The notes under the pieces: generated by a model
What the model was told of the DNA's origin: nothing
What the model saw: only the letters and a program-made list of their open reading frames with translations
Databases searched by the model: none
In this document: positions 2,302 through 40,196 of the stretch, one piece after another
Layout: each line of letters begins with the position of its first letter
How positions within the stretch are numbered: the first letter of the stretch is position 1
Translations under genes and position numbers: made by a program
From: Candidatus Hydrogenedentota bacterium
Lineage (GTDB): Bacteria; Hydrogenedentota; Hydrogenedentia; Hydrogenedentales; CAITNO01
Direction: 5' to 3'
DNA: 64,000 nt
Assembly (NCBI GenBank): GCA_012730045.1
Contig: JAAYBR010000091.1
Span: forward strand, 1-64,000

Positions 2302-3774
<1,473 letters not shown>

Positions 3775-5374: not shown

Positions 5375-6397
5375 ATGGACAAGAGCCTTCTCAACATCGG
5401 CCTCATCGGCGTGGGGCGCATCGGCAAGGTGCATGCGGAGCATCTGGCGTACCGGATTCCGCGGGCGCGGCTGGCGGCGGTTTCGGACGTGAACCTCGAG
5501 GCGGCCGCGGCGCTGGGCGCGAAGCTGGGCGTGGGGCGCGTGGAGGCGGACCACCGGGCGCTGCTGGCGGACCCCGCGCTGGACGCCGTGGTGATCTGCT
5601 CGCCGACGGACCTGCACGCGCCCATGATCGAAGAGTCGGCGGCGGCGGGCAAGCACATCTTCTGCGAGAAGCCCGTCGCGCGGACGCTGGGGGAGATTGA
5701 CCGGGCACTGGACGCCGTGGCGCGCGCAGGGGTGAAACTCCAGATCGGGTTCAACCGGCGCTTCGACGCGAACTTCGCGCGGGTGCGCCGGGCGATCTCG
5801 TCCGGCGAGATCGGCGAGCCGCACCTGCTGCACATCGTCAGCCGCGACCCGGGCCCGCCGCCCATCGAGTATGTCCGCGTGTCGGGCGGCATGTTCCTCG
5901 ACATGACGATCCACGACTTTGACATGGCCCGCTTCCTCATCGGGGAGGAGGTGGAGGAGGTCTTCGCCGCGGGGGCGGTCCGCGTGGACCCCGCCATCGG
6001 CGAGGCGGGCGACCTGGACACGGCGCTGGTCACGCTGAAGTTCGCCGGCGGCGCGCTGGGCGTCATTGACAACAGCCGCCGCGCGGTCTACGGCTACGAC
6101 CAGCGCGTGGAGGTGCTCGGCAGCGCGGGCGGCGCGGCCGTCGCCAACAACCACCCGAACACGGCGGTCATCAGCGACGCCGCCAGCGTCCACCGCGACC
6201 TGCCGCTCAACTTCTTCATGGACCGCTACCTCGACAGTTTCCTGACCGAGATGGCCGCCTTCGTGGACGCCGTGCTCGACGGCGCGCCCATCCCCGTGAC
6301 CGGCGAAGACGGCCGCGCCGCCGTGGCCCTCGGCATCGCCGCCCGCCGCTCCCACGATGAAAACCGCCCCGTGCGCCTGGACGAGATCAAGGCGTAG
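5375..6397 (+). CDS. iolG: Inositol 2-dehydrogenase (IolG), Gfo/Idh/MocA family
   Basis: A 340-residue NAD-dependent dehydrogenase that oxidises myo-inositol to scyllo-inosose, the first step of the pathway encoded around it. The Rossmann motif GLIGVGRIGKVHAEHL is at residues 9-24. FCEKPVA carries the conserved lysine of the EKP motif. GGMFLDMTIHDFDMARFL carries the catalytic Asp/His pair typical of inositol dehydrogenases. The GGAG at 5363-5366 sets the ATG at 5375. It follows the damaged toxin gene by 12 bases. Other Gfo/Idh/MocA enzymes act on related polyols, so specificity for myo-inositol relies on the neighbouring iol genes. Confidence 0.88.
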   Translation: MDKSLLNIGLIGVGRIGKVHAEHLAYRIPRARLAAVSDVNLEAAAALGAKLGVGRVEADHRALLADPALDAVVICSPTDLHAPMIEESAAAGKHIFCEKPVARTLGEIDRALDAVARAGVKLQIGFNRRFDANFARVRRAISSGEIGEPHLLHIVSRDPGPPPIEYVRVSGGMFLDMTIHDFDMARFLIGEEVEEVFAAGAVRVDPAIGEAGDLDTALVTLKFAGGALGVIDNSRRAVYGYDQRVEVLGSAGGAAVANNHPNTAVISDAASVHRDLPLNFFMDRYLDSFLTEMAAFVDAVLDGAPIPVTGEDGRAAVALGIAARRSHDENRPVRLDEIKA

Positions 6398-6443
6398 CGG
6401 GAAGTTGGGGAGGACGGACATCCCGGAAAAGGAGGAGGGCCTT

Positions 6444-7275: not shown

Positions 7276-7294
7276 GGCGGGCGGCTTCCGTAGC

Positions 7295-7325
7295 GCCGCC
7301 GTCCCGGCGGCCTTGTCTTTTTTTT
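7295..7325 (+). terminator. Hairpin plus T-run, probable rho-independent terminator
   Basis: GCCGCCG (7295-7301) pairs perfectly with CGGCGGC (7305-7311) around a TCC loop. An eight-base T-run follows at 7318-7325. It sits after the plus-strand membrane-protein gene and just beyond the stop codon of the convergent minus-strand gene. The stem is itself a copy of the palindrome found at 31206-31233, so the terminator may be built from a repeat. Confidence 0.6.
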
Positions 7326-27322: not shown

Positions 27323-27413
27323 GTCCATCCGTTAGGCGCGGCGACGGGTTGTTTTCATGCGGGCACCGGTGCGCGGCCCCGCCCCGGCGCGCGCAGGCAT
27401 GGAGAACACCGCC

Positions 27414-27956
27414 ATGACAGGCTCCCCGCGGCAGCAGGACAAACGGCCCCCCGCAAAGGCGGGCGCCAAGGGCGCAAAGGCCGGACGCCGCCGCGACACG
27501 GGGCACGACACCCTCTCGCACTCGCGCGCCCATTACCTGATGGCCATAGACACGCTGCGGTCCAGCCTGGGCTACGCGCGCACCACCGACGTCGCCGAGA
27601 TGCTGGAGGTGTCCCGGGGCGCTGCGTCCATGGCCCTCGCGCAGCTCAAGAAACGGGGCTGGGTGGCCGAGGACCCGAACCGCTTCCTGCTGCTCACGGA
27701 GGAGGGCCGCCAGATCACCGAGCTGGTCTCCGAGAACTTCGCCATTCTTTCCCGCTTCCTGGAGGTTGTCCTGGGCGTGGCCAAAGACCGCGCCACCGCC
27801 GACGCCTGCAAGATGGAGCACCTCGTCAGCCTGGAGACCAGCCGCCGCCTCCAATGGCTCACGCAGTACGTCGAGGGCGACGGCGCGGCCCCCCTGCGCA
27901 AGCACATGAAAGAGTTCAAGGCCGGCGCCGCCGGCGTGGACCTGGAGAACCTGTAG
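27414..27956 (+). CDS. DtxR/MntR-type transcriptional regulator with partial metal site
   Basis: A 180-residue DNA-binding protein. After a basic, Lys/Ala-rich N-terminus the winged helix-turn-helix runs from about residue 38 to 100 (DVAEMLEVSRGAASMALAQL, then KKRGWVAED). The dimerisation region contains ACKMEHLVS (C132, E135, H136), which matches the metal-site segment of DtxR and MntR. The other ligand positions appear changed: the His expected in the preceding helix is Phe/Asn (SENFAILSRFL) and the N-terminal Glu is replaced in HYLMAI. No SH3-like domain follows. ATG 27414 is chosen for GGAG at 27401-27404; ATGs at 27399 and 27357 are alternatives. The effector is unknown. Confidence 0.75.
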   Translation: MTGSPRQQDKRPPAKAGAKGAKAGRRRDTGHDTLSHSRAHYLMAIDTLRSSLGYARTTDVAEMLEVSRGAASMALAQLKKRGWVAEDPNRFLLLTEEGRQITELVSENFAILSRFLEVVLGVAKDRATADACKMEHLVSLETSRRLQWLTQYVEGDGAAPLRKHMKEFKAGAAGVDLENL

Positions 27957-28034
27957 GGCAGTCCCGGGGTCGTATGCGGCATTTTCAAGAGGGGAGCCGT
28001 CCCATTCGGAGAGACGGAGGGGAACAAGGGCAGA

Positions 28035-28175
28035 CCAAAGCGCTGGAAGCGCGGCATTCAACAGCCCGGGGCGTGAGCCCCGGGAAGAAAGCGCCCCCCA
28101 CCCCAGTCCCGGGAGCCCCGAAGGGGCGGCACAAAGACCTTCCGCGCTTGTGCCGCGCCTTCGGCGCTTCGGAAC
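28035..28175. repeat. Cluster of short palindromes
   Basis: Several hairpins lie in tandem: CCCGGGGC (28065-28072) pairs with GCCCCGGG (28077-28084) around GTGA, and GCGCCTTCGGCGC-type stems follow near 28155-28170. The text is repetitive and GC-rich and gives false open frames on both strands. No second copy is present in the window, so its status as a dispersed element is inferred. Confidence 0.5.
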
Positions 28176-28239: not shown

Positions 28240-28265
28240 CGCCGCTACTTGACCAGGATACGGGC
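28240..28265. repeat. 26-bp direct repeat, left copy
   Basis: Bases 28240-28265 (beginning CGCCGCTACTTGACCAGG) are identical to 31296-31321. Read on the minus strand the copy encodes ARILVK and a TAG stop, the exact end of the hydrolase at 31301-33259. The copies bracket the restriction-modification gene. Confidence 0.95.
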
Positions 28266-28303
28266 GTTGTCCGAAAAGGGGCAGGGGGTTTCCAGACCGC
28301 GCC

Positions 28304-31117
28304 CTATTTCTCCCGGGGGCGGCGCTTCTTCTTCGTCTCAGCAAGCGCGAGCGGGGCGGTCAACTGCTCATACAACTGAAACAGATACTCGACCCGTTCC
28401 CGCTCGCTGTTGAATGGCGCGGCCCGGTAGCACCGGTCCACCGCCCGGTCCAGAGCCTGATGCGCTTTGAGCAGTGGCGCAGGCATGGTAAGAGGATCAT
28501 AGAGGTCCGCCAGTGTCGCGCCTTTGTCTATGAACCCAGCACGGACATCCAACACCTTATGGGCGCAGTCGGCGATCTGTGTTAGCAGTGTTGTCGTGGC
28601 GATCTCGGGCCAAGGGAAGTTGTTGTAAACAAGGGAATTGGAGTAGCTATAGTCCGACTTCAACCGTCCGCACACCTGCCTCATCCAAGCCATGTGCATC
28701 AGGCTGGTGAGGATGCCAAAGTGGAAGACGGTTGCATCCGGCACAAATTGGATTTTGTTGCTGCAGATGACATCGTTGGACAGGTAGGCCATGGGGACAT
28801 AAAGGCGGCGTTCCGAGGATACTTCCGGGATGGCCAGATACGGCGAATCCGGTTGGGCAATCTGCCGGAAAAGGGTCGGAAAGTCAGCATACCGGCGGGT
28901 GGAGGCTGCCTTGCTGGCCAACCGGAACGCGCGCACGCGCTTTATGCGCTCCGTCACCAAGGGGAGTGTGGCCAGTTCCTGCGGGGCTGCATCCTTGAGC
29001 CAAAGGCAGTAACGCTCCCGTTCGTTGATGAAGTCCCCGCCACTCATGTAGCGGCGAACAAACTTGGCCGCCCCGGGCTCCTTTCGGAGCAGTTCGTCCC
29101 GCTCCTCCGGGGAAAGGATCAGGTGCCCCCCGTCGGTTGGTTTGTTGCCCCACAACATGCGGGGAACGCGGCACAGGGGGGCGGTCCGGTTGGTGACGGC
29201 CAGATCGGCCCCCTCGATCAGGTACGGGCTGATATTCGAGACAACCTCCTCCTGTGCCTCTCCGCCAATGTCCTGATAGTCAAAAAGCCGTTTCGGGCCG
29301 CGCTCGAGAACCCCAAAACCGATAATGACCACATGGACGTGGGCACGTCCTCTGGCCTCGCTCTGCCAGGCAAAGGTGCGGTGGGCAAACAGGATTTTGA
29401 GCTGGTAGCGGTTGAAGAGCTCCGACCACAAAATGCCGACCTGCTCTCCCTGCGTGATGGAATTCGTCGAGACAAACGCGCAGGGAGTGGGGCGTTCCTT
29501 GATGTATTCGGCGGCCTTTACATACCAGTTGCAGACATAATCAAGGACTCCCCGGGCGCCAACATTGGCCAAGACCGTTTGCTGGTCCTCTTTTTGTTCC
29601 TCGGTCTGGTAGTGATGCCCGACAAAAGGCGGATTCCCGAGAACAAACGAGCATTCCTCCGCAGGGAGAAGGTCGTTCCAGTCCATGCGGAGGGCGTTGG
29701 CGCAGCGAATGTGGGGGGTGGCCTTGAGGGGAATGCGCTGGAACATGACGCCGGTACTGAGGCTGAGTTCCACGTTCATCTGGTGGTCGGTGAGCCAGAG
29801 GGCGGTTTCGGCGATGCGGGCGGGCCATTCCCCGATCTCAATGCCGTAGAACTGGTTGACATCGGTTTTTGCCCAATGCCCACCCTCGCCCAGGTTTATT
29901 TCCTGCGCGCGGTTGCTGAAATCGTACAGGGCATCGAGGGCGCGGTGTTCGAGACGGCGCAGTTCCCGGTAGGCGATGACGAGGAAGTTGCCGCACCCGC
30001 AGGCGGGGTCGAGGAAGCGGAGCCCGGCGAGCTTGTCGCGGAAGGCCTCCAGCCGTTTGTTGCGGTGCCCCGGGCGGTTGTCCTTTCTGATCTGCTCAAA
30101 CTCCGCGTGGAGTTCATCCAGAAAGAGGGGGCGTATGAGCTTGAGAATGTCGCGCTCGGAGGTGTAGTGGGCGCCGATCTGACGGCGCTCCCGGCCGTCC
30201 ATGATGCCCTGAAACAGGGAGCCGAAGACGGCGGGGGAGATGCGCGACCAGTCAAACCGGCAGGCGGCGATCAGGCTGTTGCGCATGTCGCGGTTGAAAC
30301 TGGCGGTGTGGAGGGGATTGGCGAAGAGGTCCCCGTTGATGTAGGGGAATTCGGCCAGGTCCTCGTCCAGGTGGGAACCTCTCTTCTCCAGCGGCGTGTC
30401 GAGCACCTCGAAGAGGTGGTTGAGCTGCGCGCCCAGGTCGGAGCCGTCCTCGCGGGTCCGGTTCTGGAGGAACAGGTCAAACTGGTTGGTGTCAAAGATG
30501 CCGGTGTCGTCGGCAAAGAGGCAGAAGAGCAGCCGCACCAGCAGCCGCTCCAGTTCCGGCCCCGTGTAGTTGCCCGCCTCGATGGTGTCGTGAAGCCGCG
30601 CCATGATGGCGGCGGCCTCAAGATTCGCGGGGTCCTCCTCGCCGAAGGTGTGCGTCTTCTGTCCGAGGAAGAAGGCAAAATGCTTGATGTGCTTGTGGAG
30701 ATTCTGAAGGCGAAACTCGAATCCCCCATCCCCCTCTTCCCCCTCCAGATCATAGAGAACCATGCGGGCGAAGTCGGAGACGATGACATAGCGGGGGATT
30801 TCGCTTTCCCGGCCCGAGGAGGCCAGTTCCCCGATATAGGCGAAGGCCTGGGACTCCGCTTTGTCCAGGGGCTGTCCGGCGCTCTTGTGCTCCGCCAGCA
30901 AAGTGCCCGGCCAGAAAAGGTCAATGCGGTGATGGGTGTTCTTGAGGCTCTTGACCCGTTCCTCGAACGAAGCCACCAGCCTGCGCTTCTTTCCGAAGAC
31001 GGTGAAGAACTCGTTCCAGAAGGTCTGCGCCTCGGCGCGCTCATCCCCGGCGCCCTTCCAGTCCCTTGAGAACGTGATGGCACGCGACCGTATCTCGTTC
31101 CAGGAAAGGCTCTGCAT
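28304..31117 (-). CDS. MmeI-like type IIL restriction-modification enzyme
   Basis: A 937-residue single-chain enzyme that should both methylate DNA and cut it. The N-terminus carries a PD-(D/E)xK nuclease site, with D66 in HRIDLFW, E76 and K78 in LLAEHKSAG. A helical spacer leads to the adenine-methyltransferase core: motif I FLDPACGCGNFLVIAY (about residue 367) and motif IV NPPFVGHH (about 495). A target-recognition region follows, and a basic tail KKKRRPREK ends the protein. ATG 31117 follows GGAGGAG by 7 bases. Length and order match MmeI-family enzymes. The 3' half is visibly lower in GC than its surroundings. It is bracketed by 26-bp direct repeats, which points to acquisition. No separate integrase is present. 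Confidence 0.88.
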   Translation of the reverse strand: MQSLSWNEIRSRAITFSRDWKGAGDERAEAQTFWNEFFTVFGKKRRLVASFEERVKSLKNTHHRIDLFWPGTLLAEHKSAGQPLDKAESQAFAYIGELASSGRESEIPRYVIVSDFARMVLYDLEGEEGDGGFEFRLQNLHKHIKHFAFFLGQKTHTFGEEDPANLEAAAIMARLHDTIEAGNYTGPELERLLVRLLFCLFADDTGIFDTNQFDLFLQNRTREDGSDLGAQLNHLFEVLDTPLEKRGSHLDEDLAEFPYINGDLFANPLHTASFNRDMRNSLIAACRFDWSRISPAVFGSLFQGIMDGRERRQIGAHYTSERDILKLIRPLFLDELHAEFEQIRKDNRPGHRNKRLEAFRDKLAGLRFLDPACGCGNFLVIAYRELRRLEHRALDALYDFSNRAQEINLGEGGHWAKTDVNQFYGIEIGEWPARIAETALWLTDHQMNVELSLSTGVMFQRIPLKATPHIRCANALRMDWNDLLPAEECSFVLGNPPFVGHHYQTEEQKEDQQTVLANVGARGVLDYVCNWYVKAAEYIKERPTPCAFVSTNSITQGEQVGILWSELFNRYQLKILFAHRTFAWQSEARGRAHVHVVIIGFGVLERGPKRLFDYQDIGGEAQEEVVSNISPYLIEGADLAVTNRTAPLCRVPRMLWGNKPTDGGHLILSPEERDELLRKEPGAAKFVRRYMSGGDFINERERYCLWLKDAAPQELATLPLVTERIKRVRAFRLASKAASTRRYADFPTLFRQIAQPDSPYLAIPEVSSERRLYVPMAYLSNDVICSNKIQFVPDATVFHFGILTSLMHMAWMRQVCGRLKSDYSYSNSLVYNNFPWPEIATTTLLTQIADCAHKVLDVRAGFIDKGATLADLYDPLTMPAPLLKAHQALDRAVDRCYRAAPFNSERERVEYLFQLYEQLTAPLALAETKKKRRPREK

Positions 31118-31205
31118 GCGCTGTCTCCTCCCGACCCTGCCGGTTCATACCCAACAACGATTTGCTGTGTGCGGATGCCCTCCGGTGTGTGTCCCGGCGT
31201 GGAAA

Positions 31206-31233
31206 GGCCGCCGGGACGGCGGCGCTACGGAAG
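31206..31233 (+). repeat. 28-bp palindromic element, second copy
   Basis: This 28-base stretch (GGCCGCCGGGACGGCGGCGC, then TACGGAAG) is identical to the reverse complement of 7285-7312. GCCGCCG and CGGCGGC form a short stem. It lies between the restriction-modification gene and the right-hand 26-bp repeat. Confidence 0.88.
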
Positions 31234-31295
31234 ACAGGCGCTTCACGAGCCCATTATCCCTGTTCGCATTGATGGGGTCAAGATTGACGCAAAGG

Positions 31296-31321
31296 CGCCG
31301 CTACTTGACCAGGATACGGGC
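31296..31321. repeat. 26-bp direct repeat, right copy (3' end of hydrolase gene)
   Basis: Identical to 28240-28265 over 26 bases, with mismatches immediately outside on both sides. It covers the last six codons and the stop codon of the minus-strand hydrolase gene. Gene 3' ends are common integration sites, so this could be the attachment or target sequence of a small 3.06-kb island. Confidence 0.95.
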
Positions 31322-33259
31322 TGCGACCGTGGGGCCTTGGGGGATTCCGGCGCGGAGTTTTACCCAGTGGCCGCCTTCGGGCTCTTCGATCGGGGCTTCG
31401 GGGAGGGTTAGGGTGGCATCGAGGGGGACGCGCCCGCCGGGGGCCACGCGCAGGGGGAGGGTGTCCGGCGTGAGGGTCCAGCCTTCGGGGAGGGACTCGG
31501 CGCGGAGTTCGCCCTCGAAGCCGGAGTCGCCGAAATTGTAGGCGTACATGCGGACGGGGGCGGGCTTTCCGGCGGGGAGGGCGTAGTCGTGCTCGTCGGT
31601 CCAGCCAATGGTGTTGCGGACCACTTCCGCGCCGGGGAAACTGAGCTGCAGCACGACGGGCAGGGGCTCCCCTTCGCGTCGGGGTACCGCGGGCGGCGGG
31701 GTGAGCGGAAGGGCGTCCGCCGCACCGCGCGGGCAGGTTAAGAAGACAGGGGCGGACACGGCCCTGTCGGGCCGTTGCACGGCGCGGCCGAGGCAGTCAT
31801 GGCAGACCGCACCGGGGGCGAAATCGGCGGGCAGGGGCCAGGGGGCCTCGCACTTGCCGCGTTCGGCCCAGTCCACGGGGCGCTCGGCCCAGACCACCAC
31901 GACATCGCGGGCGTCGGCGCCCTCCGGTGACCGGAACGCCACCACGCGGGTGTCGGGCTGGCCGGGCGGGGTCCACGCGCCGAGGCAGCGGGTGCCCGCG
32001 AGGCGCCGGCCAAGATTGGCCAGAGCCACATAGCCCGGCCGGGGCGTCATGTCCTCGCGGAGGAGGCCGAACTGGATGCGGTTGCCGCCGTGCTCCTCCT
32101 TGTACTGGCCGAGGATGAAGTGAAAGCACTTCTCCGCGCCTGCGGCGAGGGCCTGGGCGTACTCCTGGGCGACGAACTGCGCCTTGAGCGCGGCGTCGGC
32201 GGGGGGCAGGTCGAGGTGGGGCATGCCGGGCGGCGAGGCGATGCCCCGGTCGCTTTCGGTGACCCAGACCGGGCGTCCGGACGCGGCGTCGCGGGCCCCG
32301 GCCCACAGGCGGTCGTAGTCATGGCACCAGTCGTAGGAGTGCATGGCGTAGACGTCGAAGTAGGGCCAGGTCTCATTTTCCAGCACACTGCGGACGAGGC
32401 CGGGGGTGTTGACTCCGGCAATGGGCTGCCAGAAGACCAGGGTTTCGGGCCGGCCTGCCTTGAACCCCAGGCAGGCGGCCTTCTGCCACGCGCAGATGTC
32501 CGACCCCGGCCACCCGCCGAAGGATTTGGCATTGGCCTCATTCCAGGGCTCCCACGCGGGAACCCGCGCGCCGAAACGGGCCGACGCCAACCGGCAGAAG
32601 GCGTGCAGTCTCCGGAGGTCCGGAACGCCGTCCGCGTCGCGGACGCGCGGGGGCATGTCGTGGAACACCTGGAGCAGTTTCAGCCCCGCCCCGCTCTGGA
32701 GGTCGGCGGTCGCGTCGTAGCGCGTGGACTCCGCGGGGCGGCCCTCCTCCGGCTCCACCTCGCGCCAGCGCAGGCGGTCGCGCACCCAGCGCACCCCCGC
32801 GAGGGCGGCGATGTGCGTCATGGCCCGCCAGGCCTCCGGCGAGTCCGGGGCCACCCACGACAGGGCGACATCCAGCGCCACGGGGGAGTCTTCCGGCAAC
32901 GGCACCGGCAGGATATCCAGCACGGCGGCGGTGGTCCAGCCGAGGGGCTGCCCGTCGGCGGCGCGGAAGACCACCTGATACCAGCCGACCCCAGGGGCCG
33001 GTTCCGGCGTCAGCACGCCCTCCGTGACTGTTCCCGTCGCCACCTCGCGGCCCGCGTCATCCAGCAGGACGGCGTCAGCGGCGCCCGCCACGGCGGCGGG
33101 CACGGGGATGCGGACAGAGACCCCGGTCAGGAAGACATTGCCCGGCGCGGGCAGGCACACCGTCTCCTCCAGGGTGTAGGCCACGGGCGGGGGCGTCTGC
33201 GCGGCGGCGGGCACCAGGGGGCACAGCAACAGGGCGAGGGCCAGAAAACGCGCGGGCAT
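31301..33259 (-). CDS. Secreted glycoside-hydrolase-like TIM-barrel protein
   Basis: A 652-residue exported protein. A signal peptide (FLALALLLCPLVPAAA) is followed by an Ig-like N-terminal region. A TIM barrel of the clan-A type comes next, with an acid/base glutamate in EPWNEANAKSFGGW (about residue 239) and a nucleophile candidate in VWVTESDRGIA (about 333). C-terminal Ig-like domains end in NEW3-like text (NFGDSGFEGELRAESLPEGW). The layout resembles GH39/GH5-related enzymes. The family cannot be set by eye. GGAGG lies 7 bases before ATG 33259. It starts 14 bases after the M48 protease gene on the same strand. Its last codons are duplicated at 28240-28265. Confidence 0.75.
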   Translation of the reverse strand: MPARFLALALLLCPLVPAAAQTPPPVAYTLEETVCLPAPGNVFLTGVSVRIPVPAAVAGAADAVLLDDAGREVATGTVTEGVLTPEPAPGVGWYQVVFRAADGQPLGWTTAAVLDILPVPLPEDSPVALDVALSWVAPDSPEAWRAMTHIAALAGVRWVRDRLRWREVEPEEGRPAESTRYDATADLQSGAGLKLLQVFHDMPPRVRDADGVPDLRRLHAFCRLASARFGARVPAWEPWNEANAKSFGGWPGSDICAWQKAACLGFKAGRPETLVFWQPIAGVNTPGLVRSVLENETWPYFDVYAMHSYDWCHDYDRLWAGARDAASGRPVWVTESDRGIASPPGMPHLDLPPADAALKAQFVAQEYAQALAAGAEKCFHFILGQYKEEHGGNRIQFGLLREDMTPRPGYVALANLGRRLAGTRCLGAWTPPGQPDTRVVAFRSPEGADARDVVVVWAERPVDWAERGKCEAPWPLPADFAPGAVCHDCLGRAVQRPDRAVSAPVFLTCPRGAADALPLTPPPAVPRREGEPLPVVLQLSFPGAEVVRNTIGWTDEHDYALPAGKPAPVRMYAYNFGDSGFEGELRAESLPEGWTLTPDTLPLRVAPGGRVPLDATLTLPEAPIEEPEGGHWVKLRAGIPQGPTVAARILVK

Positions 33260-39668: not shown

Positions 39669-40196
39669 ATGCTCTCGTTCCTGAAAGTCAAATGCCCGCA
39701 CTGCGGAGCCGAAGGCCATCTGGTGGCGCCGCCCGTCGGCGCCATCGTGGTCGGCGAGTGCCCGAAGTGCGCGGAGATGGTGGTCCTCTTCGGCGGGGAG
39801 GTGCTCCCCCTGGAGAAGGCCCGCATGACGCCGGGATCGGAGGAGGCGCGCCGCCACCTGATGGACGTCATCGCCCGCCGCCTGTGGGGCAGAATCAAGC
39901 AGGATTTCCCGGAAAAGGCCGCCGGGAAATCGCCGGAGCTCTCCTCTCCGCCGGGAAACGCGCCGCACTTCATGTCCGACGGACCGCCCTCCCCGGAACC
40001 CGGCGCCCATGCGCCGCGTTCGGAGCGGCCGCGCCCCGAGGCACCCCGCGCGGAGAAACGCCGCCCCGCGCCCGAGGGCGGCGGGGGCCGGTTCAAGGGC
40101 AGGGGCCTCATCACGCGGGAGGAGATGGAGCACTACGCCCGCGTGGAGCTGGACCTGCTGGACGACAAGGAGTTTTTCAAGGCGACCTTCGGCTGA
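39669..40196 (+). CDS. Zinc-ribbon protein of unknown function
   Basis: A 175-residue soluble protein. It starts with a zinc ribbon (CPHCGAEGHLVAP, then GECPKCAEM). A short helical stretch (EEARRHLMDVIARRLWGRI) is followed by a Pro/Arg-rich, probably disordered region. The C-terminal segment (LITREEMEHYARVELDLLDD) is acidic and helical. AGGAA lies 8-9 bases before ATG 39669. No function can be assigned. A role binding nucleic acid or another protein is typical of such ribbons. The gene stands alone between a URO-D gene and a convergent hydrolase. Confidence 0.65.
   Translation: MLSFLKVKCPHCGAEGHLVAPPVGAIVVGECPKCAEMVVLFGGEVLPLEKARMTPGSEEARRHLMDVIARRLWGRIKQDFPEKAAGKSPELSSPPGNAPHFMSDGPPSPEPGAHAPRSERPRPEAPRAEKRRPAPEGGGGRFKGRGLITREEMEHYARVELDLLDDKEFFKATFG

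Follow-up and report, generated by a model that had tools for sequence, protein, structure and literature searches.

An MmeI-type restriction-modification gene between 26-bp direct repeats that include the end of a hydrolase gene in a Hydrogenedentota genome

The DNA analyzed here (the window) is a stretch of 64,000 nucleotides from a Candidatus Hydrogenedentota bacterium. On its minus strand, at positions 28304 to 31117, lies an intact, full-length reading frame for an MmeI-like restriction-modification (R-M) protein of 937 amino acids (aa). The single polypeptide chain contains nuclease, helical spacer, gamma-class methyltransferase, target-recognition, and C-terminal domains. All five Pfam families (MmeI_N, MmeI_hel, MmeI_Mtase, MmeI_TRD, and MmeI_C) scored above their cut-offs, and the PADLOC model REase_MTase_IIG gave a score of 1182 bits. 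The structure of MmeI (PDB 5HR4) aligned with residues 3 to 931 of the protein (E = 4e-285); in this alignment D66, E76, and K78 correspond to D70, E80, and K82, which are the nuclease residues of MmeI (PMC4833311), and the sequence NPPF (N495 to F498) corresponds to motif IV. D66, E76, K78, and N495 to F498 are also invariant in alignment A1. Thus, although its sequence has diverged, the protein resembles MmeI (5HR4; PMC4833311) over its full length, in its five domains, in its aligned nuclease residues, and in its NPPF motif. Judged by its sequence, it is an MmeI-type (Type IIL) R-M enzyme. As a homologue of MmeI it should, we assume, modify its target site by methylation and cleave invading DNA that lacks this modification, about 20 bases from the site.

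The value of GC3 is 0.79 in the R-M gene versus 0.89 to 0.94 in the neighboring genes. The GC content of the whole gene is 60.8%, and the lower GC of its 3′ half, pointed out in an initial annotation of this DNA, is real but modest (59.2% versus 62.5% in the 5′ half). There is no homologue of the gene in the sister species. The homologues in other relatives are 54 to 71% identical to it, and the copies in six relatives (L156 to L161) are not accompanied by the genes that neighbor it in the window. The same genome has a second full-length MmeI-type gene (G000:C31:125144-127906), which is 57% identical to the first and has no flanking repeats. Fragments of such genes were also found: three separate MmeI C-terminal-domain fragments fall inside 3 kb at G043:C8:72804-75571, and lone fragments of the same domain are likewise present in G003, G030, and G044.

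Bracketing the R-M gene are two copies of a 26-bp direct repeat (no strand assigned), CGCCGCTACTTGACCAGGATACGGGC, one at positions 28240 to 28265, 38 bp beyond the stop codon of the R-M gene, and the other at positions 31296 to 31321, at the end of a hydrolase gene. The initial annotation had described these repeats as perfect and displaced by 3056 bases, with the right copy consisting of the last six codons and the stop of the hydrolase gene. Both statements proved correct: the match is exact, the spacing is 3056, and both copies are maximal, the bases flanking them being unrelated; the six codons and stop occupy positions 31301 to 31321, and on the minus strand the right copy also includes 5 bp past the end of the gene. 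Because the copies are in direct orientation, the minus-strand layout is hydrolase, repeat, 178 bases, R-M gene, 38 bases, repeat. The null for the repeat consisted of 1500 pairs of 400-bp flanks, placed at random in the same genome (807-kb sample) with the spacing of the locus. Among these pairs the longest exact match was 21, between tandem paralogues, and hardly any pair exceeded 13, versus 26 at the locus. A chance match of 26 bp is excluded.

The gene to which the right copy belongs (31301 to 33259, minus strand) is intact and encodes a secreted, glycoside-hydrolase-like protein of 652 aa, recognized from its relatives and from synteny; no Pfam family matched it. The order of hydrolase, M48 peptidase, and dnaE is kept in the sister species (synteny with L020). 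The C-terminal ends of the hydrolases of relatives are in register, some of the proteins being a few residues longer, and the tail is poorly conserved among them. By these sequence comparisons, the right copy of the repeat is native to the hydrolase gene. In the sister species the contig that carries the hydrolase gene breaks off after residue 206, and a search of that assembly did not reveal the C-terminal part; a scan of the genome collection with the hydrolase gave no better relative than the sister species.

The left flank carries a DtxR-like regulator (27357 to 27956, plus strand). The sister species has a carboxypeptidase-regulatory-like gene about 100 bases past its DtxR-like gene; the orthologue of this gene in the present genome is at C143:94689-90167, with 88.9% identity over 4.5 kb. 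Because the sister DNA beside the DtxR-like gene differs, synteny between the two species breaks at the left flank. We sought the reciprocal breakpoint in the sister genome and found nothing in that fragmented assembly. Just outside the left repeat is a dispersed palindromic element of about 140 bp (28029 to 28172, no strand assigned), further copies of which are on contigs C21, C32, C108, C130, C138, and C143. The copy near 21 kb on C108 is within a direct duplication with a period of about 523 bp.

Another dispersed repeat is inside the island, between the R-M gene and the hydrolase gene (31204 to 31232, plus strand). It is a hairpin with the consensus GAAGACAAG-GCCGCC-GGGAC-GGCGGC-GSTACGG, and it is genus specific, with 44 copies in this genome and 6 in the sister species but none in 18 other relatives. 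The stem is preceded by ACAAG or ACAGG in the other 17 copies from this genome and the 7 sister copies that were inspected; among the copies inspected, that at 31204 to 31232 alone has GAAAG at this place. Because the hairpin within the island has a broken 5′ edge, the junction between foreign and native DNA may be near 31203. The hairpin in the island can be read in three ways: the incoming DNA may have passed through a congener, the hairpin may be a later arrival, or foreign DNA may give way to native DNA near 31203 and not at the repeat. The window has another copy of the hairpin at 7285 to 7314, and copies are frequently in short arrays. The stems vary in matched fashion (GCCGCC, GCAGGC, and GCCAGC) around a constant GGGAC loop, which is the most enriched 5-base loop in the 807-kb sample (25 hairpins versus a mean of 1.3 per pentamer).

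On balance, we favor as probable the reading that a horizontally acquired gene for a single-polypeptide MmeI-type R-M enzyme was inserted by the 3′ end of the hydrolase gene, leaving the hydrolase intact and a 26-bp partial duplication on the far side. The best-supported reading of these sequences, it rests on the low GC3 of the gene, its absence from the sister species, the unrelated neighborhoods of the copies in relatives, and a repeat far above chance. On the same grounds, the proposal of the initial annotation that the repeats are the footprint of integration at a gene end with duplication of the target can be retained in part, though probably not with a dedicated attachment site, the 26-mer being reused in none of the DNA searched.

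Movement of R-M systems in the absence of any known element has been documented, accompanied by linked rearrangements and by target duplications that are short or about 100 bases long (PMC3874152; PMC3031569). As the R-M insertions of Nobusato 2000 and Furuta 2010 are outlined in PMC3874152, the window resembles them in that no known mobile element is linked and a rearranged region adjoins. It also has direct target copies on both sides of the R-M unit, a feature by which R-M insertion with target duplication is recognized. The window differs from those insertions in that the R-M system is a single-gene Type IIL enzyme, the duplicate is a gene 3′ end, and the duplication is 26 bp, whereas the long R-M target duplications measure on the order of 100 bp (PMC3874152); we counted this last difference against insertion.

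By the likeliest route, incoming DNA carrying some hydrolase-end sequence would have recombined with the resident hydrolase end, either by a single crossover of a circle or by homologous recombination on one side and an illegitimate join on the other. Single crossovers in E. coli yield partial duplication of the homologous locus (PMC3240628), and the combination of one-sided homologous and illegitimate joining has been documented (PMC3240628; PMC5361080). As in those cases, there is at the locus a foreign gene beside a homologous anchor, no recombinase, and, as after a single crossover, a partly duplicated anchor; however, the duplications in those reports were 109 to 950 bp, and no microhomology was seen at the left join in the window. 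Recombination at a shared hydrolase end would explain why the repeat starts 5 bp past the stop codon, that being where the intergenic DNA would diverge, why congeneric repeat DNA is found inside the island, and why a recombinase would not be needed. The other end of the repeat would be the position where the nonhomologous join fell. The genus-specific hairpin between the R-M gene and the hydrolase gene is what one would expect had congeneric DNA been part of the incoming DNA or of the junction. Nearly as likely as recombination is a target duplication produced by the fill-in of a staggered break.

Four further points were counted against the insertion reading. No empty site was seen, the sister's hydrolase contig stopping within the gene and the DNA beside its left-flank gene being different. 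One-sided recombination usually deletes recipient DNA and involves microhomology of 3 to 10 bp (PMC3240628), and at the locus neither a deletion of recipient DNA nor microhomology at the left join was seen. The breakpoint follows the DtxR-like gene, so the left flank may stem from another event. Finally, if the true boundary is near 31203, the repeat would not directly bound foreign DNA on the right.

A boundary near 31203 is part of an alternative that we consider unlikely, in which the R-M gene joined native DNA at that point and no target was duplicated; the left 26 bp would then have been copied from the nearby hydrolase end during repair of the left join. It would account for the broken 5′ edge of the hairpin at 31204 to 31232, unlike that of the 17 other copies in the genome and the 7 sister copies inspected, and for the fact that the DNA between the hairpin and the right repeat is entirely missing from the left copy. 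However, the edge could instead reflect later entry of the hairpin or mutation, and an exact patch of 26 nt is less simple than an insertion duplication.

Integrative elements that use gene 3′ ends leave attL and attR as direct repeats made of the gene end, with the gene reconstituted. The window likewise has a direct repeat made of a gene end and a reconstituted gene, and a tyrosine-recombinase-type element might have integrated site specifically at the hydrolase 3′ end, its recombinase now being elsewhere or lost. The location at a gene 3′ end, the intact gene, the 26-bp identity, and the direct orientation all agree with such an event. In contrast to those elements, the locus shows neither an integrase nor reuse of the site. 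That no recombinase is inside, as the initial annotation had stated, follows from the R-M gene being the sole gene between the copies, and no recombinase domain was detected among the 21 neighboring genes scanned. Nor did a search for the 26-mer at other loci, which had been proposed as a check, reveal any: a 23-base core occurs in just two places in the 4.46-Mb genome (≤3 mismatches allowed), a 21-base core occurs in 0 of 67 other Hydrogenedentota genomes (≤2 mismatches allowed), and viral contigs gave no match to the 26-mer. That the 26-mer was reused nowhere we searched argues against a dedicated attachment site, and it is probably not one. The poor conservation of the hydrolase tail in relatives also speaks against site-specific integration, as does the host-type dispersed repeat inside, unexpected for a foreign element. 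Such an event therefore seems to us rather improbable. An IS-like or composite transposon is unsupported, there being no terminal inverted repeats common to the insert ends GTTGTCCGAAAAGGGG and CCTTTGCGTCAATC and no transposase among the neighboring genes scanned.

We consider it quite improbable that the repeat was left behind by a rearrangement of the chromosome, or by a local duplication, at the synteny breakpoint and has no causal tie to the arrival of the R-M gene. The gene after the sister's DtxR-like gene does have its orthologue on another contig here, and there are dispersed repeats on both sides; but the left copy is within 38 bp of the end of the R-M gene, and what the pair encloses is precisely the one gene that deviates in composition.

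The initial annotation had further suggested that defense cassettes consisting of cargo alone between short repeats may be a type of mobile unit. We surveyed 55 further MmeI-family loci (46 in viral contigs, 8 in other Hydrogenedentota genomes, and the second copy in this genome), comparing upstream with downstream flanks with mismatches allowed; the maximum among 1500 mismatched pairs, used as the null, was 15. The window scored 26, the phage contig L148 scored 23, L223 scored 16, and all others scored ≤15. The L223 score comes from a GC-rich stretch and is at noise level. Clear flanking repeats were found in none of the 9 other Hydrogenedentota copies and were absent from 45 of the 46 viral copies, making 2 of 56 MmeI-family loci clearly positive with the window included. 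In L148 a 38-nt direct repeat with 84% identity (3547 to 3584 and 6368 to 6405) surrounds the MmeI-family gene. The arrangement is not that of the window, because one copy belongs to the R-M gene itself, being its 3′ end; the other is upstream of the start, beside a portal-like gene. The L148 repeat would fit displacement of an older R-M copy. It is very unlikely that genes of the MmeI type are at times mobile as bare single-gene cassettes that on arrival duplicate about 25 to 40 bp of a gene 3′ end, with the window and L148 as two examples of one recombinase-free process. The positives being few and differing in kind, bounding by repeats is rare and nonuniform among MmeI-family loci, and a repeat-bounded type of mobile unit finds no support, 54 of the 55 other loci having no clear repeats and only L148 having them.

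An assembly artefact is scarcely credible: the genome, in 155 contigs, is metagenome assembled, as are its relatives, but the window has no N, and repeats of 26 bp do not normally confuse an assembly at its final k-mer sizes, being too short.

We regard the locus as the probable scar of a common horizontal gene insertion rather than as a novel class of mobile element. For an uncultured phylum it contributes one probable case of an R-M gene that entered a chromosome with a short duplication but with no mobile element in sight, a route long noted and poorly explained. With 2 of 56 loci clearly positive, the survey suggests that such scars are rare, so that flanking repeats are no general marker of R-M mobility. 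Other two-copy direct repeats of similar length in the 807-kb sample were mostly dispersed hairpin elements or paralogues. One hairpin-forming direct repeat with 57 of 58 bases matching (G000:C31:37602-37659 and 40137-40194) surrounds a single gene with a redoxin-like region.
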